64,000 bases of DNA from Bacteroidales bacterium (GTDB lineage: Bacteria; Bacteroidota; Bacteroidia; Bacteroidales; P3). The notes beneath the pieces were generated by a model. That model worked only from the letters and a program-made list of their open reading frames with translations, searched no databases and was not told the DNA's origin. The position numbers were made by a program, and so were the translations under genes. Shown piece by piece: positions 45,158 through 61,758 of the stretch. The stretch's first letter is position 1. Each line of letters begins with the position of its first letter. Where the stretch lies: the NCBI GenBank assembly GCA_017962445.1, contig JAGCVI010000018.1:62001-126000 (forward strand), written 5' to 3'.

Positions 45158-45180
45158 AAAAGCCCCGATGGGGCTTTATT
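45158..45180. terminator. Bidirectional intrinsic terminator
   Basis: AAAAAGCCCC GAT GGGGCTTTATTT between convergent genes; the A/T flanks allow it to work both ways. Confidence 0.85.
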
Positions 45181-46256
45181 TATTTGGTGCTTACGGCTTC
45201 TGTGGCTGTGGTGTCATTACCGTTACCCGAATCCGCCGATTTCGAACACCTGCCGATAAAAAAACAGGCAACCGCAACAATAACAAGCAATAAAAGAATT
45301 GGCAGAATTCTTATCCTGCGTCTTCTCGAACCATTCTTTTTGACTGGCTCAGAAGCTTCTTTTTCTTTGTCTGCCTCGTCTTCGTCAATCTCTGCAACTT
45401 TATCTTCTTCCTGATGCGCCTCAATGGCCGTTACCTCTTCCTGCTCTTTCTTCGGCTCTGAAGGAATGTCAGATGTGTGCTCCACAAGCAGTACCGTGAC
45501 ATTGTCGCGTCCGCCGGCATTTTTGGCCGCATCCACAAGATTGCAGCAGCATTTCTTCAAATCCTTGCCCTTGCTCAGTATTGCAGTCATCTGAGCCGAG
45601 GTTATCATGTCGCACAAGCCGTCGGAGCAGAACATAAGGACACTTCTGCCCGTCAGTTGGAACGTAGCCGACTCGACAAATTCCGTCGTCTCCTGGTATT
45701 CCGAGCCCACATCGCGGCTTATGATGTTGCGTTGCGGATGGTGCATAGCCTCTTCCTCGGTGAGGTCGCCCACCTCTTCGCGATAGCCCACCAGCGAGTG
45801 GTCGTGCGACAGCTTTTTCAGCACGCCGTCAGCGAAAAGATACAGTCTGGTGTCGCCCACATGAGCCATGAACACCTTGCTGCGGCGGCTGTCGATGATG
45901 GCGGCGGTGAGCACACAGCTCATGTACGACAGCTTTGGTTCCTTGGCGCGTTGTTCAAAGATGTCGTTGTTGGCCTGTTGCACAGCCTGGCACAACAGCT
46001 CGAGAGGCTCGCCGTTTTTGTAGGTGTCGAGGAACGTTGGTATCGACTGTGCGGCAATGGCGGCAGCGACCTCACCGCCCTCCTGCCCCCCGACGCCGTC
46101 AATAGCTACAGCGAGCATGTAATTGTCAGTCCACAGCCTACGCAGCACCATATTGTCCTCGTTGTTCGAGCGCACGCATCCCACGTCGCTGACACCAACG
46201 CCTGACAACTTTGTTGCCTCGGCAGCAATTTCCTTATGATTGTCCATTATTTCCAT
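45180..46256 (-). CDS. PP2C-type protein phosphatase with C-terminal membrane anchor
   Basis: 358 residues. Residues ~15-265 form the PP2C domain with the metal-binding motifs SNNEDNMV, IDGVGGQEGG, VFMAHVGDTRLY, FCSDGLCDM and GGRDNVTVLLVEH. An acidic linker (~270-310) leads to a basic stretch and a membrane helix (ILPILLLLVIVAVACFFIG) near the C-terminus, with a short tail outside. The layout equals that of actinobacterial PstP. It should dephosphorylate Ser/Thr phosphoproteins, presumably those made by the two kinases of the same strand. It is 16 bases after the FhaA-like gene and is the last gene of the run. Confidence 0.95.
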   Translation of the reverse strand: MEIMDNHKEIAAEATKLSGVGVSDVGCVRSNNEDNMVLRRLWTDNYMLAVAIDGVGGQEGGEVAAAIAAQSIPTFLDTYKNGEPLELLCQAVQQANNDIFEQRAKEPKLSYMSCVLTAAIIDSRRSKVFMAHVGDTRLYLFADGVLKKLSHDHSLVGYREEVGDLTEEEAMHHPQRNIISRDVGSEYQETTEFVESATFQLTGRSVLMFCSDGLCDMITSAQMTAILSKGKDLKKCCCNLVDAAKNAGGRDNVTVLLVEHTSDIPSEPKKEQEEVTAIEAHQEEDKVAEIDEDEADKEKEASEPVKKNGSRRRRIRILPILLLLVIVAVACFFIGRCSKSADSGNGNDTTATEAVSTK

Positions 46257-46272
46257 ATTCCAAGCCAGTCTA

Positions 46273-47286
46273 TTACGATTCTTTTATTTTGTTTTGAGTA
46301 TATGTAAGTCCCACACCGTCGCCAAGCAGGAACGATGCCTTCGCCGAGACGCGGTACCACACAGGCTCGTCGGTGGTGCTCAGCTTTAGGCGGCGTTCGT
46401 TGAGCACCGTGTAGCCGTAAGCGGCCACCTCGAAACAGTCGTCGTCCTCTTTGTATCTGAAAGCCAGATGGCCCACGGCGACGCTGGCGTCGGGCAGCAC
46501 CAGCACGTTGTACTGCTTGCGCTGGTCGGCGGCACCCGACACAAAGAACGTCCTGTCCTTCACAGTATATGTAGCGTTGCCACCCTCTGCCTTGAATTCT
46601 AATTTAGCGAAGCCATGGGCGCCATACACCTCGGTGCGGCTCACCGACTGACCGATTTTGGTGTAGTCGAACGGCTGGCTGAAAGCTCCGCCGAGCGACT
46701 CGATGCCGAGGATAAGGTCCTTGTTGACATTCATATCCTTCGTAACGTTGGAGTTCTGTGGACGGAACGAGAGCGTCACGTTGGCTTGCTGCTGCACATT
46801 CGACCAGGCGCGGTTCATCGAGTGGAATGTCGAGCTGATGATGAATTCACCTTTCTTCAGATTGACAATCTCATCAATGCCGTCGCCGGTGTTGTCTTTT
46901 GTCACTATGTCGGTCGGCGTAATCTGGAAGAACCAGTCGGTCGAGGCAGGCACACATTTCGGGTAGTATCTGCTTTGTTCCTTGATAATGTCGTAGAAGC
47001 CGTCGACAACCTCAGGCACAATAACAATCAGCTCGTCGCGCAGGGCTGCGTAGTCCGAAGGCTCGAGCCAGACGATATAGCCCATGTGGAACACCATGCG
47101 TTTGCCCACCGAGCGTTCGACTATGATATCCTTGAAATAGGAAATCATCGACTCGTAGAACTTCTTTTCTATCGAGCGTTTGTCGACCTGTTTGTTTTTC
47201 ACCTTGGTCTCTTTACTGCCATCGTCCACCTTGGCATGGTTCAGAAGCTTTTCAAAAAAAGACTTTATTTTCATTAGTATCTTCAT
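46273..47286 (-). CDS. FhaA-like protein: possible DUF3662 N-terminal domain and degenerate FHA
   Basis: 337 residues. Residues ~40-130 (FYESMISYFKDIIVERSVGK, then YIVWLEPSDYAALRDELIVIVPEVVDGF) resemble the N-terminal DUF3662 domain of FhaA, which has the pattern 'F-x-V-x-L-S-P-x-D-Y-x-x-L' followed by a helix. The C-terminal third (VLVLPDASVAVGHLAFRYKEDDDCFEVAAYGYTVLNERRL) reads like an FHA fold with altered binding residues. No signal peptide or membrane helix. This is a remote-homology judgement from reading; a family search could overturn it. Neighbours on the same strand are the FHA protein and the PP2C phosphatase. The 108-base gap before it holds an octamer repeat. Confidence 0.6.
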   Translation of the reverse strand: MKILMKIKSFFEKLLNHAKVDDGSKETKVKNKQVDKRSIEKKFYESMISYFKDIIVERSVGKRMVFHMGYIVWLEPSDYAALRDELIVIVPEVVDGFYDIIKEQSRYYPKCVPASTDWFFQITPTDIVTKDNTGDGIDEIVNLKKGEFIISSTFHSMNRAWSNVQQQANVTLSFRPQNSNVTKDMNVNKDLILGIESLGGAFSQPFDYTKIGQSVSRTEVYGAHGFAKLEFKAEGGNATYTVKDRTFFVSGAADQRKQYNVLVLPDASVAVGHLAFRYKEDDDCFEVAAYGYTVLNERRLKLSTTDEPVWYRVSAKASFLLGDGVGLTYTQNKIKES

Positions 47287-47340
47287 TTTCTTATTATTCC
47301 ATTATTATAACCTCTCTCAATTGCCCTATGGCCTTTTCAC

Positions 47341-47388: not shown

Positions 47389-47394
47389 TTTTTT

Positions 47395-48168
47395 TTATTT
47401 CGTTTTCCATTCCAGCTCCACGCTCTTGCCCAGCACGATGATATCGCCGTCCCGCAGCGGCACAGCCTGCTTGGGGTTGTCCAGTTCCAACACGCCGCCA
47501 TTGCGGAACAGCTGAGTGCGGCTGTTGCCGAAAACGCGTGTGCCGTCGTACTCCACAAAGAGGCAGAAGCCCACGCCTCCGACGAAGGCTATGTTTGCAT
47601 GGCGGCTGCGTACATACTTGTTCAGCTCGTAGTTAGGGTCGCCTGGGTCACCCACAATGCCTATACTGTTTTCGCCATTTGCGTCGCGGCCTATGTTGTA
47701 TCTGCCCCCGTTGGCTGTCAGCGAGTATTCCGGTTTAAGCAATGAGCCTTTGCCGTTGTGAATCGTGATTGTCGCCTTTTCACCGTCGTTGCCCGTCAAT
47801 GGTGTCGATTCACCGACCGTGAAGGCGTAGCCGTCGTAAAACTCGGTGGCGTTGGTTGGTATCGGACCTCCCTTCATAGCCACATCGGCAACAGGCATGC
47901 CACAATCGTCCCTCAGGCTTGTCAGCAGCCTGTCGTGGCACTGGCCCAGCAGTTTGCGTTTGTTGTCGTCCACAACCCAGATGTATAGTGTCTCGCCTGT
48001 CAGTTCGTTGCGACGGCCGGCGTAGAACTTCCTGAGCTGTGCAGACAGGTTGCCCACCACCTCGTCGACATACTGGAAAGCGTCGTCCGGTTCCTTCTTC
48101 ACCGGTGTCTCCTTCTGCGGCTCAGAAATGGGAGAGAATATTTCCTTTATAATCTTTTTTAAACCCAT
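47395..48168 (-). CDS. FHA domain protein
   Basis: 257 residues. Residues ~55-115 (ETLYIWVVDDNKRKLLGQCHDRLL) form a first domain I do not recognise. Residues ~150-255 are a forkhead-associated domain: GGRYNIGRDANGENSIGI with the Gly-Arg, YVRSRHANIAF with the Ser-Arg-x-His phosphothreonine-binding motif, and PLRDGDIIVLGKSVELEW as last strands. It should bind a phosphothreonine made by the adjacent kinase; its start is only 13 bases after that kinase's stop. Cytoplasmic. Confidence 0.82.
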   Translation of the reverse strand: MGLKKIIKEIFSPISEPQKETPVKKEPDDAFQYVDEVVGNLSAQLRKFYAGRRNELTGETLYIWVVDDNKRKLLGQCHDRLLTSLRDDCGMPVADVAMKGGPIPTNATEFYDGYAFTVGESTPLTGNDGEKATITIHNGKGSLLKPEYSLTANGGRYNIGRDANGENSIGIVGDPGDPNYELNKYVRSRHANIAFVGGVGFCLFVEYDGTRVFGNSRTQLFRNGGVLELDNPKQAVPLRDGDIIVLGKSVELEWKTK

Positions 48169-48181
48169 ATTATCGGACTTT

Positions 48182-49774
48182 CTATTTGTTGAAATCTTTT
48201 CCTTTCAAAATTCCAAGTTGAAATTTCTGTTTTATATCATCTATCTTCCTTTCGAGTCTAGCCTTTTCACTATTTATAGCCTCGATTCTTGATTTAAGGC
48301 TGGCAATCTCATCATTTAGTGCCGCAATATTCTTATTGGAATTACTCAAGTCAGAAACCTTTTTCGATAATTCTTCATTCTCCTTTTGCAGGTCATTGAT
48401 TTTGTTGTTCAGCCTGTCAACGCTGTCGGAGGGTATCCCTGTGGTTTTTGCCGCTGCAGTCTCCTGCTTCGGCATCATGGATTGTGTTGCAAGCACGGCA
48501 ATGGCCACACCCGCAATCAGTAAGAGAACAAACAACAGCCACGAAGGGCGATGTTGTTTGTTCTTTTTGTTATTTTTCTTCAGCCAGTCATTTTCCACCT
48601 GCAGTTTGTCGACATCGACAGTCAAAGTCTTGTTTTGGTTTGACTTCTCGTCGAGCATCTTCAGCAGGTATTCGCCCGACTTCTTCTCTTTGTCGTACAT
48701 CAAATGCAGGTCGTCGAGGTTCTTGGCAAGCGACTGTTTTTCTTTTTCCAACAAGTCGATTTTCTCGGCCATCTCCTTTTTCTCAGCGGCCAAGGCTTCG
48801 GCTTTGCCTGCCGTTGCTGACTCCATGTTGCGGACTATCTCTTGGTACAGCTCGTAGCCGTCGGCATAGCGTTCTGCCGGATTCTTGGCCAGGCAGCGCA
48901 TGGTCATGTCGACAAGCCACTGCGGGACGTCGTCACGCTCTATAGCCGGCGGCTGCTTGTCGCGGTGAGCCAGAAACACACGGCATATCTCCGCCTCGGT
49001 AAGTGTCGTGGCATTGCCCTCAACGGGGAATGGAGGTTTGCCTGTCAGCATGGCGTAAAGCACACAGCCAAAGCTATAGATATCATCCTGCGGCGTGGGA
49101 TCGAGGCCGTTCGAGCGGTCAGGCGACTTGAATTCGATGGCGCCCTGCTTCTTGCGGCTGCTGCCGACGACGTCCGACTTGCCGTCCACAGCCAAGCCGA
49201 AATCGAGAAGGATATAGGTGCCGTCACTGCGGCGCATGATATTGCCGGTGTGTATGTCGTTGTGGACAACGCGATACTTTTCTATCAAACGACGCTCCAC
49301 CTCGGGAGTTATCAGTGCCGAGCCGTCGTCGGCATCCTCGAGGCTGTCGCTCTCGCGGTCGTAGCACACCTTGTAGATGTCGTGATGGCAGTAAGCCAAT
49401 GCTGATCCTATTTCGCGGAGCATACGCAAAGTCTCGTCGATGGGCACCTTGCCGTCGTATTGCTCTATCAGCTTACGAAGGTCAACGCCGTCGACCCAGT
49501 CCATCTCAACAAAGGCGCGACCTGCCACATGACGAGGCTGGTACACTCGCACAATGTTTGTATGGCAGCCGTTGCCAAGCCTCAGCAGCACACGGCATTC
49601 GTGCAGGAAGTTCTGAAAAATCTTGTCGCTCTCCTTCTCCACATGGGCGTTGAGCACACGGATAGCACGGATATAGCCATATTTCAAGCTCTTGGCCTTG
49701 TATACGGTGGCATACCCGCCCTCGCCGAGCTCTTTCAGAAGAAGATATTCATCACCTAATTTATCGTATTGCAT
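48182..49774 (-). CDS. Membrane-anchored Ser/Thr protein kinase (copy 1)
   Basis: 530 residues. The kinase domain (1-~310) has the glycine loop GEGGYATVYKAK, alpha-C Glu59, HND-type catalytic loop with Asp173 and Asn178, DFG (Asp191) and SPDR in the activation segment. The beta-3 lysine position is Arg39 (YIRAIRVLN), which is atypical. About 37 residues are inserted before the catalytic loop (residues ~132-168). Then come a coiled coil, one membrane helix (LLFVLLLIAGVAIAVLAT, ~415-435) and an outer coiled coil to the end. There are no PASTA repeats. Kinase domain plus a single helix plus outer sensor is the PknB plan. It lies directly before the FHA gene. Confidence 0.93.
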   Translation of the reverse strand: MQYDKLGDEYLLLKELGEGGYATVYKAKSLKYGYIRAIRVLNAHVEKESDKIFQNFLHECRVLLRLGNGCHTNIVRVYQPRHVAGRAFVEMDWVDGVDLRKLIEQYDGKVPIDETLRMLREIGSALAYCHHDIYKVCYDRESDSLEDADDGSALITPEVERRLIEKYRVVHNDIHTGNIMRRSDGTYILLDFGLAVDGKSDVVGSSRKKQGAIEFKSPDRSNGLDPTPQDDIYSFGCVLYAMLTGKPPFPVEGNATTLTEAEICRVFLAHRDKQPPAIERDDVPQWLVDMTMRCLAKNPAERYADGYELYQEIVRNMESATAGKAEALAAEKKEMAEKIDLLEKEKQSLAKNLDDLHLMYDKEKKSGEYLLKMLDEKSNQNKTLTVDVDKLQVENDWLKKNNKKNKQHRPSWLLFVLLLIAGVAIAVLATQSMMPKQETAAAKTTGIPSDSVDRLNNKINDLQKENEELSKKVSDLSNSNKNIAALNDEIASLKSRIEAINSEKARLERKIDDIKQKFQLGILKGKDFNK

Positions 49775-49801: not shown

Positions 49802-49904
49802 GTAACGGCTCGGCTCCGCTTCTCGCCGTTTACAAGCCTTCTCTGTTAGGTTTCTCCCTTTTGACATAAACTACTGGACAAGGACCAGGCGGAAGCCCAA
49901 GTAG
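49802..49904. repeat. 103-bp duplicated block, copy A
   Basis: Identical over 103 bases to 54977-55079. It covers the last ~11 codons of a SUMF1-fold gene and its downstream spacer, including the hairpin AACGGC...GCCGTT. See the finding. Confidence 0.9.
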
Positions 49905-51055
49905 CTGCCGCGGTACGATGCGAGGATGAAGTCGCGACTCGACACACGGCAGCCCCTCGCGTAGTAGTCCCAGCTCCCGCCACGAATCACACGGTACGAG
50001 CCAGAATCGCCATAGTGTTTAGGATCGCGCTCCGCTGAACTGCCGTAGTGGTACCATGCATCCGAGCACCACTCCCAGACGTTGCCGCTCATGTCGTACA
50101 ACCCGAGTTCGTTGGCTTTCTTGGTTTTTACCGGATGTGTCTTATCTCCGCTGTTGTCCCAATACCATGCCACATCGTCTCTCGTATTGCTGCCACTGTA
50201 CTTGTAGCCATTGCTCTTGCTGCCACCACGCGCCGCATACTCCCACTCCGCCTCGGTCGGCAACTGGAATGTGCGACCTGTCTTGCGGTTCAACTCGCTA
50301 ATGAATGTCTGCACATCGTCCCAACTGACATTCTCAACCGGCAAATCATCACCCTTGTAATAGCTCGGATTATAGCCCATCACAGCCTTCCACAACGCCT
50401 GCGTCACCTCCGTCTCACCAATGCTGTAGCTGCTCAACGTCACCTGATGCGCCGGCTTCTCATAACTCCAACAATCACTTCCCTGTTCGCCGGTGCACCC
50501 CATGGTGAAGGTGCCGCCCTCGACATAGACCATCTTGAAACTGACACCGTTGACTGTAATGGTCTGGTCCTTACTCGCTGGAGAACTAGATGTACTACCT
50601 TTCTGCACTGGTTGATTTGGGGGCTTTACATCTTCTGCACTAGACGCTGTAGTTGTATTGTTTGGTATTTCATCATTACTTTTTTTACCACTTTGATTTT
50701 TACCATCTTTTTTTGTAGAAGGCTTATTTGTGTCAGATGCTTGCTTGCTATTATCCTGTTTAGCTTGTTGGTTTTGCTTATTCTTCTGATTATTACTTGT
50801 TGTACCAGTTGTTGATGTCTTTGTTTTTTTGCGCTCAGCTATCTTCAGTTCGATATTCTTGTCGCGTGAACATTTACGTTCGCCTAAATAAGTATTGTTA
50901 TAGAAAGTCTCCACTTGTTTGTAGTTGCCTTCTTTCCATGCTTGTTCCATATTTTTCTTGGCTCTGTTGCACCAGTCGTCCTGCGCCTGCAACGGCATCA
51001 CAAGCACACAAAGAGTAAACAGCAGAACACTATGAATCAATGTATTTATCCTCAT
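49871..51055 (-). CDS. Secreted SUMF1/C-type-lectin-fold protein (tandem copy 1)
   Basis: I take ATG 51055 (MRINTLIHSVLL), because the promoter at 51077-51107 puts the mRNA start near 51070; ATG 51067 would be almost leaderless. 394 residues: signal peptide ending in LQAQ, a conserved ~45-residue helical module (NRAKKNMEQAWKEGNYKQVE...RDKNIELKIAE), a long Lys/Asn/Ser-rich linker (~75-160), then an FGE-type domain (GVSFKMVYVEGGTFTMGC, EVTQALWKAVMG, LPTEAEWEYAARGG, GLYDMSGNVWEW, RGGSW, GFRLVLVQ). The Cys pair of true FGE is incomplete, so binding rather than catalysis is likely. Located between kinase copy 1 and four paralogues. Confidence 0.88.
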   Translation of the reverse strand: MRINTLIHSVLLFTLCVLVMPLQAQDDWCNRAKKNMEQAWKEGNYKQVETFYNNTYLGERKCSRDKNIELKIAERKKTKTSTTGTTSNNQKNKQNQQAKQDNSKQASDTNKPSTKKDGKNQSGKKSNDEIPNNTTTASSAEDVKPPNQPVQKGSTSSSPASKDQTITVNGVSFKMVYVEGGTFTMGCTGEQGSDCWSYEKPAHQVTLSSYSIGETEVTQALWKAVMGYNPSYYKGDDLPVENVSWDDVQTFISELNRKTGRTFQLPTEAEWEYAARGGSKSNGYKYSGSNTRDDVAWYWDNSGDKTHPVKTKKANELGLYDMSGNVWEWCSDAWYHYGSSAERDPKHYGDSGSYRVIRGGSWDYYARGCRVSSRDFILASYRGSYLGFRLVLVQ

Positions 51056-51076
51056 AACATATATCAATTATAAATG

Positions 51077-51107
51077 CAAAATTACAAAGAAATTATTGAA
51101 TAACAAA
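51077..51107 (-). promoter_or_regulatory. Predicted promoter of SUMF1-fold gene copy 1
   Basis: TTTG (51104-51107) and TAATTTTG (51077-51084) on the minus strand are 19 bases apart, a perfect match. Two copies of AATTTGTGGATTTC (around 51131 and 51170) lie just upstream; a similar AATGTGGATTTCTCC stands upstream of copy 4 near 54914. Confidence 0.72.
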
Positions 51108-51499
51108 CCTTTCATGCAAAAACAAAATATAAATTTGTGGATTTCTCCTGTTTTTAACGAAAAAAATTTGTGGATTTCCCCTTTTATTCCACTAAAAACA
51201 ATGACTATCTGCACTTTACAGAAACATTCCATTAAAGGTTTCCTTTGGCAACTTCTATTTATTGTCCATAGGGCAATTCTTTTAATAGCAGAAAACACCA
51301 CACCATTCACCCTAAAAGAACATTTCATGCTTTTGCCCTTTCTGGACGTGATAATTTGGCTTTCAACACCCAGGGCGATGCCCTGGGCTGGGTAATTAAG
51401 CCCTTTCTGGAAGTTTTTTTATAAACAAAACCTAATCAGTCACTTAAAAAATCCCTACGAAATAACCATTTCCACAAAACAATTTCTGGGAAATGCAGA
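51108..51499. other. Intergenic region between SUMF1-fold copies 1 and 2, with a 7-bp-stem palindrome
   Basis: About 390 bases. CCCAGGG CGATG CCCTGGG at 51369-51387 is a possible terminator for copy 2, ~110 bases after its stop. CCCTTTCTGG occurs on both sides of it. A 99-codon plus-strand frame (51096-51395) has no family features and I do not call it a gene. Confidence 0.5.
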
Positions 51500-52360
51500 C
51501 TACTGGACAAGCACCAGGCGGAAGCCCAAGTCGAAGTCATAGGTTAAATCCTTGCAGCTTGCGCGATACGACACACGACAATTACTTGGGTAATGGCCCC
51601 AACTTCCTCCACGAGTCACATGATATGAGTCAAAATAAGGATTGCGTTTTGCAGAACTGTCATAGCTGTACCAAACATCTTCACACCACTCCCATACGTT
51701 GCCGCTCATATCATAAATACCAAGTTCGTTGGCTTTTTTTGTTTTTACAGGTTGTGAATGTGTTCCATGTTCAATATTGCGATTATACCATGCCACCTCG
51801 CCTATTTCATTGCTGCCGCTGTACTTGTATTCCTTGCTCTTGTTTCCACCCCGGGCAGCATACTCCCACTCCGCCTCGGTTGGCAACCTGAATGTGCGGC
51901 CCGTCATGCGGTTCAACTCACGGATAAACCTCTGCACATCAATCCAACTGACACAGTAGGCAGGAATATTGTCACCGAGGCCATAAATCGTATTCCAACC
52001 ATGACCATCTATCGGCACACTCCCCATCACCGCCTTCCACAACGCCTGCGTCACCTCCGTCTCGCCGATACTATAGCTGCTCACTGTCACCTGATGCGTC
52101 GGCTTCTCATCTTTTATACAATCTCCACCCTGCTCTGAGGTACATCCCATTGTGAAGGTGCCGCCTTCGACATAAATCATCTTGAAACTGACACCGTTGA
52201 CAGTAATGGTTTGTTCTCTCTTTATTTGCGCTGTTTCATTGTTTTTCTCAACTTCACTGTTTTTGTTTGCATTACTGCCTGTCAGTCGCCATATCATAAA
52301 TATAGCACCAGCGAGAACCAAAAAAGACAGAACACTATAAATCAATACATTTCTTTTCAT
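51500..52360 (-). CDS. Secreted or anchored SUMF1/C-type-lectin-fold protein (tandem copy 2)
   Basis: 286 residues, the shortest of the five. The N-terminus (NVLIYSVLSFLVLAGAIFMIW) is an uncleaved-looking membrane helix rather than a clear signal peptide, and the helical module of the other copies is absent. The FGE-type domain (~50-286) is complete: GVSFKMIYVEGGTFTMGC, EVTQALWKAVMG, LPTEAEWEYAARGG, GIYDMSGNVWEW, RGGSW, NCRVSYR, GFRLVLVQ. A TATATTTG -7 box sits at 52381-52388. It is likely displayed on the periplasmic side of the inner membrane. Confidence 0.87.
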   Translation of the reverse strand: MKRNVLIYSVLSFLVLAGAIFMIWRLTGSNANKNSEVEKNNETAQIKREQTITVNGVSFKMIYVEGGTFTMGCTSEQGGDCIKDEKPTHQVTVSSYSIGETEVTQALWKAVMGSVPIDGHGWNTIYGLGDNIPAYCVSWIDVQRFIRELNRMTGRTFRLPTEAEWEYAARGGNKSKEYKYSGSNEIGEVAWYNRNIEHGTHSQPVKTKKANELGIYDMSGNVWEWCEDVWYSYDSSAKRNPYFDSYHVTRGGSWGHYPSNCRVSYRASCKDLTYDFDLGFRLVLVQ

Positions 52361-52436
52361 AACTTCTTTATTTTAGATTGCAAATATACAAAAAACACAT
52401 GCTTAAACCATTCGAAAAATAGTTTTTTATACTACT

Positions 52437-53699
52437 TTACCATTGCTTTATATTAATATCCTCTTTGTACCAAGACCTAATATGCTTGTACAAGGCTTCT
52501 GCAGCTGTCTTACTTGCTGCACTACCCATGCTGACATAGTATAGACCATCACGATTGATAATATAAGAATCGCAACCACTTGCTTTAAGTTCTCTACATA
52601 ATTGATCTGCATTTCCCTTATTTGCAAACACCCCCGCTATAATATCAAATCCTTGTTTCGATTCAGAAACAATTTTGCTTAAAACAGGACTATTTTTCCC
52701 GTTTTTTTCATTTCCAACTTCAAGAACCAGGCGGAAGCCCATGCCATCATAACAGAACGACTGCTCGAAATTGTCACGATTCGACACACGGCAACTCCTC
52801 GACTTATAGTTCCAGCTTCCGCCACGACGCACACGGCCCGAGCCATAAGAAGGTCCCTGGGGATTAGTTTGACTTGCATTGTCATAGACTTCATACATAT
52901 CATAGCACCATTCCCATACGTTGCCGCTCATGTCGTACAGCCCAAGCTCGTTAGCTTTCTTGGTTTTTACTGGATGCGTTTTCCCCTCACTGTTTTCTTT
53001 ATACCATGCAACCTCGTCAATTACATTACTGCCGCTATACTTGTAGCCTTGACTCTTGCTGCCGCCACGTGCCGCATACTCCCACTCCGCCTCGGTGGGC
53101 AGGCGGAAAGTGAGACCTGTCTGGCGGTTCAACTCCCGGATAAACCTCTGCACATCGTCCCAACTGACCTTGTAGGCAGGATAGTTTTTGCCGCGACCGT
53201 ATTCTTTTGTCCAGCCATCCTTATATGTTGGCTCACTTCCCATCACCGCCCGCCACAATGCTTGCGTAACCTCTGTCTCGCCTATACTGTAGCTGCTCAG
53301 TGTCACCTTATGTGCCGGCTTTTCGTCATCATCATAATCTCCCTCCTGCTCCGAGGTGCAGCCCATCGTAAAGGTGCCGCCCTCAACATAGACCATCTTG
53401 AAACTAACGCCGTTGACGGTAATGGTCTGGTCTTTGCCAGTGGGCTGTGTGGGTGTTGTCGGCTTTGGTTTTGGTTTGGGTGTATTATCCTTACCACAAT
53501 TGGCTATCTTCAATTCAATTTTCTTGTCGCGTGGACAATTATATTCCTTTAAATATATGGAATTATAGAAGGATTCGACTTGCTTGCAATTGCCTACTTT
53601 CAACGCTTCCACCATGTTGTTCTTGGCATTGTTGCAGTCCTGCGCTCGCATCGGTACAAAAACAAAAACTATTATTATTAGAACCAGCAGATTTTTCAT
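52437..53699 (-). CDS. Secreted SUMF1-fold protein with C-terminal SPOR-like domain (tandem copy 3)
   Basis: I start at ATG 53699 (MKNLLVLIIIVFVF); ATG 53726 lies inside the predicted promoter -7 box. 420 residues: signal peptide ending in PMRAQ, the helical module (NNAKNNMVEALKVGNCKQVESFYNS), a short Pro-rich linker, the FGE-type domain to GFRLVLEV, and then ~75 residues reading FDIIAGVFANKGNADQLCRE...DSYIINRDGLYYVSMGS, which has the beta-alpha-beta layout of SPOR domains. SPOR domains bind peptidoglycan stripped of stem peptides at division septa. Of the five copies only this one has it. It fits the SEDS-PBP gene in the same cluster. Confidence 0.86.
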   Translation of the reverse strand: MKNLLVLIIIVFVFVPMRAQDCNNAKNNMVEALKVGNCKQVESFYNSIYLKEYNCPRDKKIELKIANCGKDNTPKPKPKPTTPTQPTGKDQTITVNGVSFKMVYVEGGTFTMGCTSEQEGDYDDDEKPAHKVTLSSYSIGETEVTQALWRAVMGSEPTYKDGWTKEYGRGKNYPAYKVSWDDVQRFIRELNRQTGLTFRLPTEAEWEYAARGGSKSQGYKYSGSNVIDEVAWYKENSEGKTHPVKTKKANELGLYDMSGNVWEWCYDMYEVYDNASQTNPQGPSYGSGRVRRGGSWNYKSRSCRVSNRDNFEQSFCYDGMGFRLVLEVGNEKNGKNSPVLSKIVSESKQGFDIIAGVFANKGNADQLCRELKASGCDSYIINRDGLYYVSMGSAASKTAAEALYKHIRSWYKEDINIKQW

Positions 53700-53723
53700 T
53701 ATGATGATTTTTCTACTAATTAT

Positions 53724-53752
53724 CAAACATACAGAAGTTATTAAATATCAAA
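53724..53752 (-). promoter_or_regulatory. Possible promoter of SUMF1-fold gene copy 3
   Basis: TATGTTTG (53724-53731) fits the -7 element and TTTG (53749-53752) lies 17 bases upstream, slightly short. It supports the start at 53699. Confidence 0.5.
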
Positions 53753-53832
53753 GATTAAAAACCTTTATTTCAATCAATTAAATAAAAAAAATCAACAACC
53801 ATGTTTTCTTTTAAAATCATTATTAAAAATCA

Positions 53833-54831
53833 TTATTGGTCAAGTACCAAGCGAAAGCCTAAGGAGTGGGAACCTTTTTCTTCACTTTCACCTCTATCAT
53901 ACCTTCGATTGCGATACGACACACGACATTTTTCTGCTTCACAATCCCAGCAACCACCACGCACCACGTAGTCGTAGCTATATTTTTTATAGCCTTCTGG
54001 ATTTGTCACTTGATAGCTTGAGTATTCTACATACACATCATTGCACCATTCTGCCACATTACCACTCATATCGTATAAACCAAGTTCGTTTGCTTTCTTG
54101 CTTTTGACAGGACTTGTTTTTCCTGGACTATTGTTCCAATACCACGCCACTTCATTGATATCATTACTGCCACTATACTTATTTCCTTCACTATTTTTGC
54201 CGCCTCGTGCAGCATACTCCCATTCTGCCTCGGTAGGCAAACGAAACTTGAGTCCTGTCTTTTCATTAAGTTTTCTGATAAACTGTGAAATATCATAACG
54301 ATTGATATAATAGACAGGGTAATCGTCACCAAGACCATATCCTACCGTCCATCTATACGGTTTACTTTCCATCACTTCACACCATAATGCCTGGGTTACT
54401 TCCGTCTCACCTATATAGTAGCCACTCAACATCACTCCGTGTGATGGTTTTTCATCATCATTACAATCATTACCTTGCTCAGAAGTACAACCCATAGTGA
54501 AGGCACCACCTTCAACGTATACCATCGTAAAACTAACCTTGTTTACTTTGATAGTACGGCTTTTTGGCGAAGGTTGAGGTTGATCTTCTATTTTAGATTC
54601 TCTGCATTTGTTAATTTTTAATTCAAGGTTTTTATCTCGAGGACACTTGTACTCATTTAAATATATTGAATAGTAAAATTTTTTTACTTGCATGCAGTTG
54701 CCCCCGTTCAAAGCCTCCTCCATGTTGTTCTTGGCATTGTTACACTTGTCGTTCTGCGCTTGCAGCGGCAATACAGCCACCGCAAGGAACACAAGAAGCA
54801 GAACACTATGAATCAATGTATTTCTCTTCAT
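53833..54831 (-). CDS. Secreted SUMF1/C-type-lectin-fold protein (tandem copy 4)
   Basis: 332 residues: signal peptide (LIHSVLLLVFLAVAVLPLQAQ), helical module (NNAKNNMEEALNGGNCMQVKKFY), short linker, FGE-type domain. It is the most diverged copy: the codon usage is more AT-rich, RGGSW is RGGCW, and the C-terminal loop is longer (RYDRGESEEKGSHSLGFRLVLDQ). It reads GCWDCEAEKC, so it has two cysteines in the variable loop. The promoter lies at 54853-54882. Likely periplasmic or exported. Confidence 0.87.
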   Translation of the reverse strand: MKRNTLIHSVLLLVFLAVAVLPLQAQNDKCNNAKNNMEEALNGGNCMQVKKFYYSIYLNEYKCPRDKNLELKINKCRESKIEDQPQPSPKSRTIKVNKVSFTMVYVEGGAFTMGCTSEQGNDCNDDEKPSHGVMLSGYYIGETEVTQALWCEVMESKPYRWTVGYGLGDDYPVYYINRYDISQFIRKLNEKTGLKFRLPTEAEWEYAARGGKNSEGNKYSGSNDINEVAWYWNNSPGKTSPVKSKKANELGLYDMSGNVAEWCNDVYVEYSSYQVTNPEGYKKYSYDYVVRGGCWDCEAEKCRVSYRNRRYDRGESEEKGSHSLGFRLVLDQ

Positions 54832-54852
54832 AAAAACAATTTATTAAGATTG

Positions 54853-54882
54853 CAAATATACTCAAAAATATTGAATCACAAA
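54853..54882 (-). promoter_or_regulatory. Predicted promoter of SUMF1-fold gene copy 4
   Basis: TTTG (54879-54882) and TATATTTG (54853-54860) on the minus strand, 18 bases apart; start would be ~15 bases upstream of the ATG. Confidence 0.65.
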
Positions 54883-54976
54883 TCCTTCTTGCGAGAATAA
54901 TCCTGACAAAAAAAATGTGGATTTCTCCATTTTCTCCCAATGAATTTGCATTATCGTTTTTTTCCGAGAAGGCTTA

Positions 54977-55079
54977 GTAACGGCTCGGCTCCGCTTCTCG
55001 CCGTTTACAAGCCTTCTCTGTTAGGTTTCTCCCTTTTGACATAAACTACTGGACAAGGACCAGGCGGAAGCCCAAGTAG
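54977..55079. repeat. 103-bp duplicated block, copy B
   Basis: Exact copy of 49802-49904, here covering the 3' end of SUMF1-fold copy 5 and its downstream spacer. In this copy the hairpin is extended by GAAGGCTT (54968-54975)/AAGCCTTC on the outside, giving a longer stem. Confidence 0.9.
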
Positions 55080-56017
55080 GAGCCGCGGGGCAGGGGCAAG
55101 GCGAAGTCGTCGCTGCGAAACGACACACGGCAGAACCAAGCGCTGTCGAGCCAGCTTCCGCCACGATACACACGGCGCGAGCCAGTAGAAGGACCCTTAG
55201 GATTGGTCTGGCTTGCACTGCCATAACTGCCGTACCAGTCTTCACACCATTCATACACGTTGCCGCTCATGTCGTATAGTCCAAGTTCGTTGGGCTTCTT
55301 GGTCTTTACCGGTTGTGTCTTTTTTCCGCTGATGTCCCAATACCATGCCACATCTCCTATCGTATTGCTGCCACTGTACTTGTAGCCACGGCTCTTGTTG
55401 CCGCCCCGTGCAGCGTACTCCCACTCCGCCTCGGTAGGCAACCGAAACGTGCGCCCCGTCTTGCGATTCAGCTCGCTAATGAATGTCTGCACATCGTCCC
55501 AACTGACATTCTCAACCGGCAAATAATCTCCCTTGTAATAGCTCGGATTATAGCCCATCACAGCCTTCCACAACGCCTGCGTCACCTCCGTCTCACCTAT
55601 GCTGTAGCTGCTCAACGTCACCTGATGCGCCGGTTTTTCATCATAATCACATCCTCCCTGCTCCGAGGTGCAGCCCATCGTGAACGTACCTCCCTCAACA
55701 TAAACCATCTTGAAACTAACGCCGTTGACAGTTATGGTCTGGTCCTTGCTCGTGGGCTGTGTGGGTGGTGTCGGCTTTGGCTTTGGTTTGGGTGTATTAT
55801 CCTTACCACAATTGGCTATCTTCAATTCAATGTTCTTGTCGCGTGGACACTTATATTCCTTTAAATATATGGAATTATAGAAGGATTCGACTTGCTTGCA
55901 GTTGCCCACTTTCAATGCCTCCTCCATGTTGTTCTTGGCATTGTTACACTTGTCGTTCTGCGCCCGCAATGGCAGAATAGCAACAATCATTATTACTGTA
56001 ATCAATAATTTCTTCAT
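55046..56017 (-). CDS. Secreted SUMF1/C-type-lectin-fold protein (tandem copy 5)
   Basis: 323 residues: signal peptide (LLITVIMIVAILPLRAQ), helical module (NNAKNNMEEALKVGNCKQVESFYNSIY) nearly identical to copy 3, Pro/Lys linker, and the FGE-type domain nearly identical to copy 1 up to RGGSW. After that the loop differs strongly (LDSAWF-CRVSF-RSDDFALPLP) before GFRLVLVQ. The chimeric likeness to copies 3 and 1 suggests recombination among paralogues. It stands next to kinase copy 2, just as copy 1 stands next to kinase copy 1. Confidence 0.88.
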   Translation of the reverse strand: MKKLLITVIMIVAILPLRAQNDKCNNAKNNMEEALKVGNCKQVESFYNSIYLKEYKCPRDKNIELKIANCGKDNTPKPKPKPTPPTQPTSKDQTITVNGVSFKMVYVEGGTFTMGCTSEQGGCDYDEKPAHQVTLSSYSIGETEVTQALWKAVMGYNPSYYKGDYLPVENVSWDDVQTFISELNRKTGRTFRLPTEAEWEYAARGGNKSRGYKYSGSNTIGDVAWYWDISGKKTQPVKTKKPNELGLYDMSGNVYEWCEDWYGSYGSASQTNPKGPSTGSRRVYRGGSWLDSAWFCRVSFRSDDFALPLPRGSYLGFRLVLVQ

Positions 56018-56103: not shown

Positions 56104-57465
56104 TCATTTCCATGCTGTGCGGTTCCCGTTGGCAGGTGGATTGCTCCTCCTCTTCAACATGTCGAGTTCTCTCTGCAGTATACTAATTTTGCTTTTCAGG
56201 TTGATGACACTTTCGGTCAACACATTGACACGATCGTTTTTTTCCTTGAGCGCCACAAGCAATTCAGACTCTTTGGCTTTTGATTTTTTCAACTGCGAGA
56301 ACAGGTCTTCGAGATTTCTTGTAAGAGCCCTCTTGTCCTTTTCCAATCTTACTATCCTTTTCTTCAAGTCATTCAATTCATCTATTGTGGATGGTGAGAC
56401 AATCGTATCTGGCTTATGGACAGGAACTGTGACAGGGGCAACAGCAGGTGCAGGTTCATGGACAGGAACTGTGACAGGGGCGACAACAGATGCGGGAACC
56501 TGTGAGGCTTGCTTCATATTGCCAAGCACTTCCTGATACAGCTCGTAGCCATCGGCGTAGCGGTCGGCAGGATTTTTAGCGAGGCAACGCATGGTCATAT
56601 CGACAAGCCACTTAGGAGCGTCGTCGCGGTGTATGACTGGTGGCTGGTCATCGCGATGGGCCTTGAAGACACGGAATATTTCTTCGTCGGACAACACTTT
56701 GGCATCGCTGCGTACCGGGAACGGCGGCCTGCCTGTCAACATGGCGTAGAGTACACATCCGAAGCTGTAGATGTCGTCCTGCGGTGTGGGGTCAAGACCC
56801 TTTGACCGCTCCGGCGACTTGAACTCGATGGCGCCCTGCTTCTTGCGGCTGCTTCCCACCACATCGGTATTGCCGTCCACTGCCAAGCCGAAATCGAGAA
56901 GTATATAGGTGCCATCGCTGCGACGCATGATATTGCCTGTGTGTATGTCGTTGTGGATAACACGATACTTTTCTATCAAACAGCGCTCCACTTCTGAAGT
57001 TATCAGCGGCGAGCCGTCGTCGGCATCGTCAAGGTTGTCACTCTCGCGGTCGTAGCACACCTTGTAGATGTCGTGGTGACAGTAAGCCAATGCTGAGCCT
57101 ATTTCGCGGAGCATACGCAGGGTCTCGTCGATAGGGACCTTGCCTCCGTATTGCTCTATCAGCTTGCGAAGGTCGATGCCGTCGACCCAGTCCATCTCGA
57201 CAAATGCGCGACCCGCCACATGACGAGGCTGGTACATTCTGACGATATTGTTGTGGCAGCCGTTGCCGAGGCGCAGCAACAAACGGCACTCATGCAGGAA
57301 GCTCTGATAAATCTTGTCGCTCTCCTTCTCCACATGGGCGTTGAGCACACGGATGGCACGAATGTAGCCGTACTTGACGTTCTTTGCCTTGTACACCGTA
57401 GCATAACCGCCCTCGCCAAGCTCTTTCAGCAGAAGATATTCGTCGCCTAATTTATCGTATTGCAT
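56104..57465 (-). CDS. Ser/Thr protein kinase with coiled-coil tail (copy 2)
   Basis: 453 residues. The first ~310 are nearly the same as kinase copy 1: GEGGYATVYKAK, Arg at the beta-3 lysine position (YIRAIRVLN), the insertion before VIHNDIHTGN, DFG and SPER. After that it diverges: a Pro/Val-rich linker with two APVTVPVH units, then a coiled coil (~350-440) and a short tail. There is no membrane helix, so unlike copy 1 it is cytosolic unless held by a partner. It is 48 bases downstream of the SEDS-PBP fusion on the same strand, the likely substrate or partner in analogy to PknA/PknB. Confidence 0.93.
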   Translation of the reverse strand: MQYDKLGDEYLLLKELGEGGYATVYKAKNVKYGYIRAIRVLNAHVEKESDKIYQSFLHECRLLLRLGNGCHNNIVRMYQPRHVAGRAFVEMDWVDGIDLRKLIEQYGGKVPIDETLRMLREIGSALAYCHHDIYKVCYDRESDNLDDADDGSPLITSEVERCLIEKYRVIHNDIHTGNIMRRSDGTYILLDFGLAVDGNTDVVGSSRKKQGAIEFKSPERSKGLDPTPQDDIYSFGCVLYAMLTGRPPFPVRSDAKVLSDEEIFRVFKAHRDDQPPVIHRDDAPKWLVDMTMRCLAKNPADRYADGYELYQEVLGNMKQASQVPASVVAPVTVPVHEPAPAVAPVTVPVHKPDTIVSPSTIDELNDLKKRIVRLEKDKRALTRNLEDLFSQLKKSKAKESELLVALKEKNDRVNVLTESVINLKSKISILQRELDMLKRRSNPPANGNRTAWK

Positions 57466-57513: not shown

Positions 57514-60500
57514 TCATTGTTTATAGTATTCCAATTCTCTAAGCACTTTCAATACCGCATCGCGACTGAACGCCATTGCCAGTCCCGAGCCTTCGTCGTT
57601 CAGACGTTCCATGCGAACAGCCACAGCCAAAGAATGCTTTTCGTTGTAGCCAGGCACATTACATCCGTCAACATAGAAGATAAACCAGCCGTCGTTTATT
57701 TTCCGACCCTTGACAAGATCACGTTCAGGCGTACCTGTCTTGCCACCGACAGCATCGTCAGAGATGGCATTAACCGAAACACCGTTTTCTTTGTTACCAT
57801 GCAGCGACATAGTATGCATATAGCCTTTCAAAAGAGATGCCTCTTTGCTACCGACAATAGGTATACCCTCTTCGTATGGGTCGTTAAGGCAGAAACGAGT
57901 CTTAGGCATCACACCGCCGTTGGCAACCACCGACACCACACGCGCCATGCTGAGCGGAGTAGCAGAGAGCGTTCCCTGTCCCCATGCCCACATCCATTCT
58001 CTCTTACCCAAGGATTCTGGCTTGATGTCACGTGTGGACATATACTTCTTGTATTCGGCAATGCCGACACTATGTTTTTCGCTGACTATACCTTTCCAAA
58101 AAGAGCGTCTTCTACCGAGCATAGGCGAGTAACGGAAAAAGTAGGGCGTTATGCTTTCTATCTTGTCATCATATCCAAGCATGACTCCAACAGAAGCATA
58201 GATGCTGTCGAGATTGGAATAGAGGTCCAGTTGGTTCATCAGGTTGACGAAATAGCAGTTGGAAGAATATGCTATTGCACGTTCCATGGTTACGACACCT
58301 TGAGGCTCTTTGATTATTCCGTTTTTCACTTCGATATACTCTTTATCGTACATCTTATATTTATTTTCAGATGCCTTCAATCCATATTTCTGAAGGCCCG
58401 CCAAGGCTGTCATCACCTTGGCTGTTGAGCCTGGCATGGTGGGATAGACAAGACCAAGGTCTCGGTCAGTGTAGGCATGTCTCAAATTCTTGTCCTTGTA
58501 AAAGTTTTCATCGGAGTGAAGGCGTACGGTATCCTTGTTTACAGGAGGGTAGACGGCCGAGGCCAGCATGTCGCCTCTCTCGGCGTCAAGCACCACAACC
58601 GAAACACGCAGCAGGTTCTTGTTTTTGTATATATTCTTATTTTCCCTTTGGATATAGTCAATTATTTCATCCTGCAAACGGCATTGCAGTTTGGCATCGA
58701 GTGTCAGATAAAGATCCTGAGGATTGATGAATCGCGATTTGCGGTTGTTGACTTTTTCTATCCTGCCGCTGCGACGACCTGCTTTCAGGAGTGGCAGCAA
58801 GGCGCTGTAGTCGCGCAGCACCACCTGTTCTGAATAGAGTTCGACAGGAGGCTGGTAGCGGTCGGCGACGTAGCGACTGGACATCACATCGATTTTCACA
58901 GGTTTGGTGTGGGCGCTGTCGGCATAGAGCACATTGTCGAAGCCTCGCAGATAAGACATGTGCTGCCATTCGGCCATATAGCCAAGATTGGTTGACGAGA
59001 CGGCAGTGCCAGGATTGGCATCGCCCACCATAAACAACAGGCGGTCGCCCAAGGGATAGTAGCGACGTGTGCGGTGGGAACGCAAATTCTGCAATTCCTG
59101 TTCGCTGACACCCATTTCGACATAATTCTTGTAATTGATACTGTCGAGCGTGCTTGTGGCCAGCAGTATGCCGTTGCGGTCGTAGATATTGCCAGCCTGC
59201 AAAGCCCACTGGATATCGTTGATACGAGGATTGTACTGCACCAAGTTTTCGCCAGTCACCGAAGTGACATACAAAGGCCGTATCAACGTGTCGTTGCGCT
59301 TGAACACCATGGTGCGGACAAAGACAAAAAGCACAAACATCGAAAGGGCAAACCATGCCAAGCGCGTCACCGCCACCGGAGCGCCATAGGGGCGGAATAG
59401 GTTGTCGGCGGCACGGTCGGCGGCATTGTCTTCGCGTGGGGCGAAGGTGTGCGCCTCGACACTGAGCACAAGTCCGAAAGCCATCAGTGTCATTATCATG
59501 CTCACACGCCCGTAGCTCAAAAGCGGCACAGCGACGCCAGTCAACGGGATGACACCAGTACTGCCAAGTGCTATGACAGTGAACTGCACGGCAGTGACAA
59601 CAGCGATGCCGAGACAAACAAAGAAGGCGAAATGGTTGCGAGAGCGGTAGCCCACAGCAACGGTATGGTGAAGTATTGCCAGAAGCAGCATCACGACAAC
59701 AAGCAGTCCAAGCCAGCCCATCTGTTCGCCAAGGCTGGAAAGCACCATGTCGGTATGGAACGCAGGGATATAATTCGGCGAGCCATTACCGAAACCCTGT
59801 CCAAACAAGCCCCCCGAGGCAAGACCCCAGAGGCCTTCGGCCACCTGGCTGTTGGCCACGGGATGGAGATCGGCACCGTCGAGGCCAAGCTCGCCCCACG
59901 GATTGGAACACATGTCGCTGCGCATGGCGAAACGCTCGCCGATGCTGCCCGGCAAGTTACGGGCGAAGACAAAGACAGAGATGACGGCGTTGGCCATCAT
60001 AGGCGACTCGATAATCTGACGTTTGGTGACAACCCACCATATAATCCACAACACAAACCACAAGATTGCAAAGAGGCCTGCAGAATAGACCTTGCCGCCG
60101 ATCCACACGACAAGCAGAAATGAGAGCACACCGACAAAAAGAAGGAAGATGTCGCTCCTTATAGCACTCGACATAAAGCTACGCTCAGCACCACCCCAAC
60201 TGCCTTTAGACTTGATGACAGAATAGATGACTATGAACGAGAAAAGGAGCACAAGGCCAGGTCCCATATCGCCCAAAACAAGGTATATCAACAACATGCA
60301 GAACAAGGCAATGAAAATGCCCGACACATGACGTAGCTTGTTCCAAGTAAGGGAGATATTACCCTCGGAGGAATAGCCGACAAGGCTGTCTGCCTTGCGG
60401 CAGAACCACGCCGACATGAAGAACACTATCAGGTACTTGGCTATCTCGCTCGGCTGGAATGTCAGCGGACCGATTTTAAGATTGACTCCCATGCCGCCGA

Positions 60501-61758
60501 CACTGCGTCCCAGAGGTGAGAACAGCAGGAGTGTGAGCAGCAAAGCTATCAAATAATAACCCAGGCCTTTGCTTTTGAGCATTGTGCCGACACGGTCGAA
60601 CCACGGGCTGCGGAAGAACATCTTCAAATCGACGAACTGCAGCACCGCCATGGCAACAACACCAGCGACAACACCTTTTAGATAGTCGACAGCTATAAGA
60701 TTGTCGACCAACGGGTCGTTGAACGAAAACATGCCAAGCAGACCGATGCCCGTAACACCCATGAAAGCCGCCACAGGCCAGTAGACAGCCTCCTTGCGGC
60801 GACGCAGCCACATCACACCGCACAAAGCGAACCAGCTTACGAGGAACAGCACCGCCGACCTCGAGACAAGCCCTTTCCACTGGTTCGGAGTGCGAAGGGT
60901 GAAAGAGTGGTCGTCGCGGATGACACGAAGTGTGGCATCGTCGAAGATGGAAACACGCAACGGCTGCTGATGGAATGTAAAATGCAGATTGCCATAGCTC
61001 TTTTTGAAAAACGACATCAACCGGTCTTTCAAACCCGACGGAGCGTTAGCTGTACGTCCCAATGTGCCACCGGTGGTGCCTTGCGAACGACCGTACTCAT
61101 AGCCTTCACGCACAGGCAACACGCTGTAAGAGGCCGCAGTGTCGAGCCCCACAAACGAGGCCTCGCCCTGGGCGGACGTTATGGCGATGGCGACGACAGT
61201 GCTTTGCGGCAAAGCGTTGGAATCGAAGGTGTGCAGGCAAAGGTTGACCGATACACCTGCAACGGCAGCGTCCTTATCCATGACACGCACAGAGATGCTT
61301 CCATTGCCCGATGCCAGATTGACCTTCGAAGATGAGTCGCACAAAACCGAGTCGGATATGAAATCGAAGTCCGAAACGACACTCCTCGCCTTGCTGGCCA
61401 TAGCAGTGAGTTTGCTACGATTACTATCCAGCCCTTCCAATATTGAAACCGGCAGCTTCCAGCTGTTCATCCGAAGGCTGTAGAGTGACGCCAAATCGCG
61501 GCCGGGGCCTTTTAAAGAATCGGAAAGGAATTTCGCCACAAGCCTGGCATCGGCAGTGTCGGAAAAATAATTCCTGTTGAGCAGAACACTCTCAATGTCA
61601 CGTGCCTCGACATTGCGGTCCAGATTGACAGAGAGGTAACTTTTATAGTCCTCCTCAACATCTGAGAAATCAGCACGATAGGCACGAACCAACCTGGCGC
61701 ACAGCAAAATGAAGCATACGGTGACTATCAGTATTGAGAACTTGCGCAGAATTTTCAT
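57514..61758 (-). CDS. SEDS glycosyltransferase (FtsW/RodA) fused to class B penicillin-binding protein
   Basis: 1414 residues. One N-terminal membrane helix (~8-25) and a ~270-residue extracytoplasmic domain come first. Residues ~300-790 are a SEDS polymerase: LGRSVGGMGVNLKIGPLTFQP, GDMGPGLVLL, and FHTDMVLSSLGEQMG with Asp670 in the place of the conserved SEDS aspartate. Another helix (~810) precedes the PBP: dimerisation region (AGNIYDRNGILLA), then the transpeptidase with SxxK at Ser1111-Lys1114 (PGSTAKVMTAL), SxN at 1165-1167 (SSN) and KTG at Lys1340 (GGKTGTPE). Both polymerase and crosslinking sites look intact, so one chain could make and crosslink glycan strands. Normally the two are separate genes (ftsW-ftsI, rodA-pbp2). 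A TACTTTTG -7 box is at 61779-61786. Confidence 0.95.
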   Translation of the reverse strand: MKILRKFSILIVTVCFILLCARLVRAYRADFSDVEEDYKSYLSVNLDRNVEARDIESVLLNRNYFSDTADARLVAKFLSDSLKGPGRDLASLYSLRMNSWKLPVSILEGLDSNRSKLTAMASKARSVVSDFDFISDSVLCDSSSKVNLASGNGSISVRVMDKDAAVAGVSVNLCLHTFDSNALPQSTVVAIAITSAQGEASFVGLDTAASYSVLPVREGYEYGRSQGTTGGTLGRTANAPSGLKDRLMSFFKKSYGNLHFTFHQQPLRVSIFDDATLRVIRDDHSFTLRTPNQWKGLVSRSAVLFLVSWFALCGVMWLRRRKEAVYWPVAAFMGVTGIGLLGMFSFNDPLVDNLIAVDYLKGVVAGVVAMAVLQFVDLKMFFRSPWFDRVGTMLKSKGLGYYLIALLLTLLLFSPLGRSVGGMGVNLKIGPLTFQPSEIAKYLIVFFMSAWFCRKADSLVGYSSEGNISLTWNKLRHVSGIFIALFCMLLIYLVLGDMGPGLVLLFSFIVIYSVIKSKGSWGGAERSFMSSAIRSDIFLLFVGVLSFLLVVWIGGKVYSAGLFAILWFVLWIIWWVVTKRQIIESPMMANAVISVFVFARNLPGSIGERFAMRSDMCSNPWGELGLDGADLHPVANSQVAEGLWGLASGGLFGQGFGNGSPNYIPAFHTDMVLSSLGEQMGWLGLLVVVMLLLAILHHTVAVGYRSRNHFAFFVCLGIAVVTAVQFTVIALGSTGVIPLTGVAVPLLSYGRVSMIMTLMAFGLVLSVEAHTFAPREDNAADRAADNLFRPYGAPVAVTRLAWFALSMFVLFVFVRTMVFKRNDTLIRPLYVTSVTGENLVQYNPRINDIQWALQAGNIYDRNGILLATSTLDSINYKNYVEMGVSEQELQNLRSHRTRRYYPLGDRLLFMVGDANPGTAVSSTNLGYMAEWQHMSYLRGFDNVLYADSAHTKPVKIDVMSSRYVADRYQPPVELYSEQVVLRDYSALLPLLKAGRRSGRIEKVNNRKSRFINPQDLYLTLDAKLQCRLQDEIIDYIQRENKNIYKNKNLLRVSVVVLDAERGDMLASAVYPPVNKDTVRLHSDENFYKDKNLRHAYTDRDLGLVYPTMPGSTAKVMTALAGLQKYGLKASENKYKMYDKEYIEVKNGIIKEPQGVVTMERAIAYSSNCYFVNLMNQLDLYSNLDSIYASVGVMLGYDDKIESITPYFFRYSPMLGRRRSFWKGIVSEKHSVGIAEYKKYMSTRDIKPESLGKREWMWAWGQGTLSATPLSMARVVSVVANGGVMPKTRFCLNDPYEEGIPIVGSKEASLLKGYMHTMSLHGNKENGVSVNAISDDAVGGKTGTPERDLVKGRKINDGWFIFYVDGCNVPGYNEKHSLAVAVRMERLNDEGSGLAMAFSRDAVLKVLRELEYYKQ

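Follow-up and report, generated by a model that had tools for sequence, protein, structure and literature searches.

A conserved kinase, phosphatase and FHA operon around a SEDS-transpeptidase fusion in Bacteroidota, with a SEDS domain that groups with actinobacterial RodA

The DNA examined is a stretch of 64,000 nucleotides (the window) from a Bacteroidales bacterium, contig JAGCVI010000018.1, whose assembly amounts to 2.04 Mb and is 80% complete. At window positions 45180-61758 lies a cluster of eleven open reading frames (ORFs) encoding a SEDS-transpeptidase fusion, two Ser/Thr kinases, five SUMF1-fold proteins, two FHA-type proteins and a PP2C phosphatase. An original prediction, made from the sequence alone, had read these as eleven genes on one strand, with rodA and pbpA in one gene, and had likened them to the actinobacterial pknAB locus. 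All eleven were recovered intact at these positions, every one on the minus strand and with intergenic gaps of 13-432 bp, and the FTSW_RODA_SPOVE and Transpeptidase domains are indeed carried by a single ORF. Among the other predicted domains, Pkinase, PP2C and FGE-sulfatase were found by profile search, as was FHA, weakly when the protein was searched alone, while DUF3662 was not. The genes are as follows.

57514..61758, minus strand: SEDS-transpeptidase fusion, 1414 aa (Pfam FTSW_RODA_SPOVE 4.4e-36 and Transpeptidase 6e-20)
56104..57465, minus strand: Ser/Thr kinase 1, 453 aa (Pfam Pkinase 6.9e-36)
55046..56017, minus strand: SUMF1/FGE-fold protein 1, 323 aa, N-terminus signal-peptide-like (FGE-sulfatase 6.6e-51)
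53833..54831, minus strand: SUMF1/FGE-fold protein 2, 332 aa (FGE-sulfatase 3.4e-44)
52437..53726, minus strand: SUMF1/FGE-fold protein 3, 429 aa, with a C-terminal SPOR domain (FGE-sulfatase 4.3e-51, SPOR 1.5e-7)
51500..52360, minus strand: SUMF1/FGE-fold protein 4, 286 aa (FGE-sulfatase 1.9e-50)
49871..51067, minus strand: SUMF1/FGE-fold protein 5, 398 aa (FGE-sulfatase 1.9e-49)
48182..49774, minus strand: Ser/Thr kinase 2, 530 aa (Pfam Pkinase 1.1e-34)
47395..48168, minus strand: FHA protein, 257 aa, N-terminal alpha/beta domain and FHA domain (family FHA matches, model)
46273..47286, minus strand: FhaA-like protein, 337 aa, N-terminal alpha/beta domain and C-terminal FHA fold with pocket residues lost
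45180..46256, minus strand: PP2C phosphatase, 358 aa (Pfam PP2C_2 7.7e-14; Stp1/IreP model 8.5e-61, 205 bits for a cut-off of 230)

The fusion protein begins with a transmembrane (TM) segment and an N-terminal extracytoplasmic stretch of ~270 aa, followed by the SEDS domain (~385-780) and a class B PBP (~816-1414). The catalytic residues, namely SEDS D670 and transpeptidase S1111/K1114, S1165/N1167 and K1340-T-G, are present in 10/10 aligned fusions. The fusion is an accessory SEDS beside the ordinary FtsW and RodA machines: a PF01098 search found two separate SEDS genes (378-473 aa) besides the fusion in 17/17 other genomes. In the window's own assembly one separate SEDS gene (435 aa) was found, as expected because the genome is incomplete. 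Two related loci have PP2C, SEDS and transpeptidase in one ORF (L120 6762-10916, 1384 aa; L130 9050-13966, 1638 aa).

The cluster is real and its adjacency is not due to chance. In public data, 351 relatives were found in named genomes and the best 80 of the 351 were kept, with carriers ranging from gut Bacteroidales to Spirosoma, Larkinella, Mucilaginibacter, Pedobacter, Niastella and a Flavobacterium. Within 7 ORFs of the fusion these 80 loci hold an FHA gene in 77 cases, a kinase in 75, a PP2C in 74 and an FhaA-like gene in 70, and the core genes are co-stranded in 80/80. Of the 61 loci with 8 kb of sequence to either side of the fusion, 57 contain the four partner classes complete within that distance; related genomes thus do not show the scattered genes that the original prediction had named as a ground for refuting it. 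As a background, 17 stretches of nine fusion-bearing genomes with a free-standing FtsW/RodA gene were compared, and none of them has a gene of any of the four classes; an 18th, the rodA/pbp2 locus of the window's own genome, has one ORF that fuses a kinase to FGE and another that matches a kinase less well. Of 395 sampled genomes of the phylum, searched at E <= 1e-60, 15 carry the fusion, own genome included, and among class-mates FHA, FhaA-like, PP2C and kinase genes stand beside it in 9/9. With second-round profiles the FHA gene is detected in L113, as are several genes in L116-L120; scores at L107, L109 and L112-L115, from which these profiles were partly built, are not independent.

Closer to the window, close kinase relatives occur in three genomes that belong to the family but to another genus, and these keep the cluster in a different order with one FGE gene; in G028, a family genome of another genus, a contig end truncates the fusion. 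Among the matches listed for the genus (119 genomes), the own fusion is accompanied by partial matches only (<= 60 bits, 22-34% identity), open frames of up to 958 aa among them. The entire core cassette was also found on a Spirosoma oryzicola plasmid (NZ_CP089545.1, a 137-kb record; L205 5232-15788), and hence may move between genomes.

Both FHA-type proteins have an FHA fold. The FHA protein matches FHA weakly when taken alone (E 0.0018, 19.1 bits for a cut-off of 20.7; 21.2 bits in the genome search), 36/37 members of its family match FHA, and its model (pLDDT 86.5) gives the FHA fold at E 2.5e-5 or better. The only FHA match genome-wide is the gene beside the fusion in G403, G450 and G038; in G288 there is none above the limit, so that Pfam misses the operon FHA gene of that genome. 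The FhaA-like protein gave no Pfam or NCBIfam match as a single sequence; 14/38 members of its family match FHA at E <= 0.1 and its AlphaFold model shows an FHA domain spanning ~220-337. A search with this protein in 149 family genomes returned itself only, a sensitivity miss given that two of these genomes carry relatives at 19-20% identity. Of the FHA/DUF3662 relation that had been predicted for this gene, the FHA part stands. The other part does not, FhaA_N (DUF3662) being found in 0/38 members of its family, in 0/37 of the FHA protein's family and nowhere in the own genome, with a positive Corynebacterium control. By hhalign its N-terminal part compared with one FhaA reached a probability of 1.4, and with two FhaA sequences the FHA part alone aligns (E 1.3e-4, probability 54; E 4.9e-4, probability 32). 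An FhaA_N identity of the N-terminus was rejected, as neither the family search nor one- and two-sequence hhalign gave a significant match; the VIA structure list was filled by FHA chains and is a weak probe of the N-terminal fold. Crude hydropathy, by which all TM segments below were counted as well, gave none in 83 FHA and 64 FhaA-like proteins.

The kinase domains of the two window kinases are 86% identical. Kinase 1 has no TM segment and kinase 2 has one near 409 with a coiled-coil tail after it; a single segment is seen in 105 of a set of 122 kinases, to which the two window and two Tsukamurella kinases belong, and in 62/74 PP2C, that of the window PP2C lying near 313. The catalytic (HxD) Asp is kept in 119/120 kinases and the DFG Asp in 120/120, both being present in the window kinases, and the PP2C metal-site Asp is kept in 11/11 aligned proteins. 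Wall-type domains were found in the kinase outer parts, SH3_3 in 2/8 and Big_2 in 1/8 scanned. No PASTA domain was detected by Pfam in kinase 1 (22/22 families), in 8 relatives or in the best 25 of 47 kinase 2 matches, and no cold-shock or kinase-fused FHA domain in kinase 1, 8 other kinases or the same best 25 of 47. Two genes in all match PP2C_2 in the own genome, which also contains a second signalling cluster (L078, G000:C29:1-14000), with nine FHA matches, several kinases and one PP2C in 14 kb.

All five SUMF1-fold genes of the window match FGE-sulfatase (Pfam). They are a local lineage add-on and not, as the original prediction had it, a general part of the system, for FGE lies within 7 ORFs of the fusion in 5/80 public loci. 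The block (49871-56017) has a G+C of 0.42-0.45 compared to 0.49-0.53 in the core genes on both sides. The SPOR domain, present in one of these proteins, binds peptidoglycan. A diversity-generating retroelement serving the set was considered and rejected, the sole reverse transcriptase of the own genome being on contig C5, which has no FGE match. A further link between kinase, SUMF1 fold and wall was seen at L077 8921-12155 (G000:C35), where the own genome's rodA and pbp2 have as neighbours a kinase fused to FGE (603 aa) and an FGE protein of 438 aa.

The SEDS part was placed in an unrooted maximum-likelihood tree of 45 rows, 13 fusions included, with long branches. The clade of the fusions stands apart from FtsW and canonical RodA: one branch with support 100/99 has on one side the 13 fusions, three actinobacterial RodA (Tsukamurella, Embleya and Streptantibioticus) and the FHA-adjacent SEDS of Monoglobus. 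Constraining the fusions with Bacteroidota RodA or with Bacteroidota FtsW was rejected by the approximately unbiased test (p-AU 0.00037 and 0.00104), as was constraining the actinobacterial RodA with canonical RodA (p-AU 0.00013, mixture model), and the clade persists after removal of the Monoglobus, Collinsella and Rhodococcus rows. It is no phylum effect, since the mre-linked Collinsella RodA groups with canonical RodA and the Rhodococcus FtsW also falls outside. The actinobacterial RodA rows are few (three), Tsukamurella alone coming from a demonstrated full locus (fhaA-pknB); the Embleya row has a kinase gene upstream and the Streptantibioticus row is without a kinase match in 6 kb.

The remaining parts show no such link. 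The transpeptidase part, already joined to FtsI at 70/36, tolerates being constrained with PbpA (p-AU 0.379) or with PBP2 (0.251). The operon PP2C form a clade of their own, apart from the second PP2C of L122, with long branches and no clear position for PstP, and the kinases split into two or more clades, without a demonstrated sister relation to PknA/PknB for either. Common descent of the entire cassette with the actinobacterial locus was therefore set aside, and the case for kinship rests on the SEDS part, not on the whole cassette. The L122 locus (37-11140), from Dysgonamonadaceae, has a pair of PP2C genes, and the second of them sits on a very long branch of the PP2C tree.

According to PMC11898655 and PMC6554272, the actinobacterial locus functions in wall growth. 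Its resemblance to the window cluster, proposed in the original prediction, holds and goes beyond similar components. The Bacteroidota operon has the same functional classes in one run as fhaA-fhaB-pstP-rodA-pbpA-pknA-pknB (reference Tsukamurella, L224), a membrane PP2C and a SEDS domain of the same clade, and its order FhaA-like - PP2C - SEDS - PBP is that of fhaA-(fhaB)-pstP-rodA-pbpA in Tsukamurella, PstP being located by profile at L224:6537-7511. However, in Bacteroidota a single gene encodes SEDS and PBP together with a further N-terminal domain, the FhaA-like protein has no FhaA_N match, no PASTA was seen in the kinases scanned, kinases and PP2C are not shown to be sister to PknA/PknB/PstP, and the fusion is accessory to two separate SEDS. 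In Monoglobus pectinilyticus (NZ_OY725743.1) a clostridial FHA - FtsW/RodA/SpoVE - PBP trio is adjacent too and has a SEDS of the same clade, but the genes are separate and no kinase or PP2C is annotated within 10 kb. Natural single-ORF SEDS-PBP fusions are also on record (PMC10449877); the accessible part of that paper mentions no kinase, FHA or phosphatase context for them, unlike the operon described here.

It is probable that the core genes form a dedicated, phosphorylation-controlled extra peptidoglycan synthase beside FtsW/FtsI and RodA/PBP2, a function that we infer from gene content, linkage (with PP2C fused to the synthase in two loci), conserved residues, the TM segments, the wall-type outer domains, the SEDS clade and the role of the actinobacterial locus. 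The fusion would combine a glycan polymerase (SEDS) and a cross-linker (class B PBP) in one polypeptide with an additional N-terminal extracytoplasmic domain. Ser/Thr kinase and PP2C, each anchored in the membrane and exposing a short part outside, would determine how far cytoplasmic sites of the synthase or of its partners are phosphorylated; reading of phosphothreonine would fall to the FHA protein, and the FhaA-like protein may serve as a scaffold. An envelope signal could thus be turned by kinase and PP2C into phosphothreonine marks through which the FHA proteins recruit, place or gate the synthase. In the window lineage exported SUMF1-fold proteins, one with SPOR, would have been added, probably on the outer side.

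Several observations weigh against this reading. Arg replaces the beta-3 Lys in both window kinases (8/120 family members; the others have Lys), residue 187 of the FHA protein is Arg where at least 90% of the family have Ser, and the pocket residues of the FhaA-like FHA domain are lost, leaving a degenerate site; signalling in the window copy may consequently be changed. Four of the 61 complete loci lack partners (FhaA-like in L140 and L153; FhaA-like, PP2C and kinase in L143 and L154). Outside the class the stretches of the phylum sample are thinner, FHA and FhaA-like genes flanking the fusion in 5/6, PP2C occurring in 2/6 (once fused to the synthase) and a kinase in 1/6. Moreover, the transpeptidase part fits more than one placement, and the kinases of different lineages sit in separate clades, from which it follows that operon kinases have been exchanged.

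The changed residues would also fit a window copy that is decaying or rewired, with kinases acting as pseudokinases or scaffolds and a cluster working for the SUMF1 proteins instead of wall synthesis. The tandem duplication of kinase and SUMF1 genes and the lower G+C of the SUMF1 block point in the same direction. We nevertheless hold this to be unlikely: the eleven ORFs are intact, the HxD and DFG Asp as well as the key residues of SEDS, transpeptidase and PP2C are conserved, and the beta-3 Arg recurs in six further kinases from five other loci. Convergence deserves somewhat more weight, though we still doubt it. Bacteroidota would then have assembled the same functional classes independently, the actinobacterial likeness would be an analogy and the tree link would reflect drift of the SEDS sequence only. 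The lack of FhaA_N matches and of PASTA in the kinases scanned, the failure of kinase and PP2C to group with PknA/PknB/PstP, the transpeptidase tree and the small number of actinobacterial rows, with Tsukamurella RodA alone from a full locus, are in keeping with it. Against it stand the 100/99 SEDS clade with its three rejected rival groupings, the separate positions of Collinsella RodA and Rhodococcus FtsW, which exclude a phylum signal, and the shared gene order.

A defence module of the kinase-kinase-phosphatase (KKP) kind, linked to the synthase by chance, appears very improbable. In PMC11341870 the KKP module is described from prophages, some in Bacteroidetes, its kinases carrying cold-shock (PfkA) and FHA (PfkB) domains. 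In some loci (Spirosoma type) PP2C is indeed followed directly by two kinases, and the operon kinases match the PADLOC models PD-T4-6 and mad6. Yet these models match kinase domains generally, the fusion and both FHA proteins match no PADLOC model, the cold-shock and kinase-fused FHA domains of KKP were not seen in the operon kinases scanned (for kinase 2, in the best 25 of 47 matches), and the wall synthase is the constant partner.

Elsewhere in the window, a Sel1-repeat protein (61999-62979, plus strand) adjoins the fusion gene divergently, and a 1489-aa ORF with Cas9 domains (RuvC_III 2.4e-59, HNH_4 5.6e-18) lies at 5551-10020 on the plus strand. A 1092-aa protein at 17750-21028 (minus strand) combines an N-terminal FHA domain with an FtsK/SpoIIIE ATPase, an architecture which we take to resemble EssC of type VII secretion.

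SEDS-PBP fusions and the actinobacterial locus are already known, and the new part is the Bacteroidota operon together with the joint SEDS branch. In agreement with the original prediction, which knew of no such locus in this phylum, no description of either was found in the open-access literature, subscription papers and preprints being outside the search. With some reserve, we favour the view that the branch is a third great one of the SEDS family, apart from FtsW and RodA and forming part of kinase/FHA/phosphatase modules in three or more phyla; it would include the actinobacterial polar-growth 'RodA', which would then not be the counterpart of E. coli RodA, and in Bacteroidota it would serve as an additional synthase, gated by a signal and joined to its PBP in one protein. 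Control of wall synthesis by Ser/Thr kinases has hitherto been studied mainly in Gram-positive phyla, and a widespread, conserved operon of Gram-negative Bacteroidota, some carriers of which are harmless soil species in culture, would offer a second system for the gating of a SEDS-PBP synthase by kinase, phosphatase and FHA proteins, one in which fusion fixes the SEDS:PBP stoichiometry. Furthermore, the SEDS tree suggests that the RodA proteins of actinobacteria and of other rods are not counterparts, a point that would alter comparisons between polar and lateral elongation.

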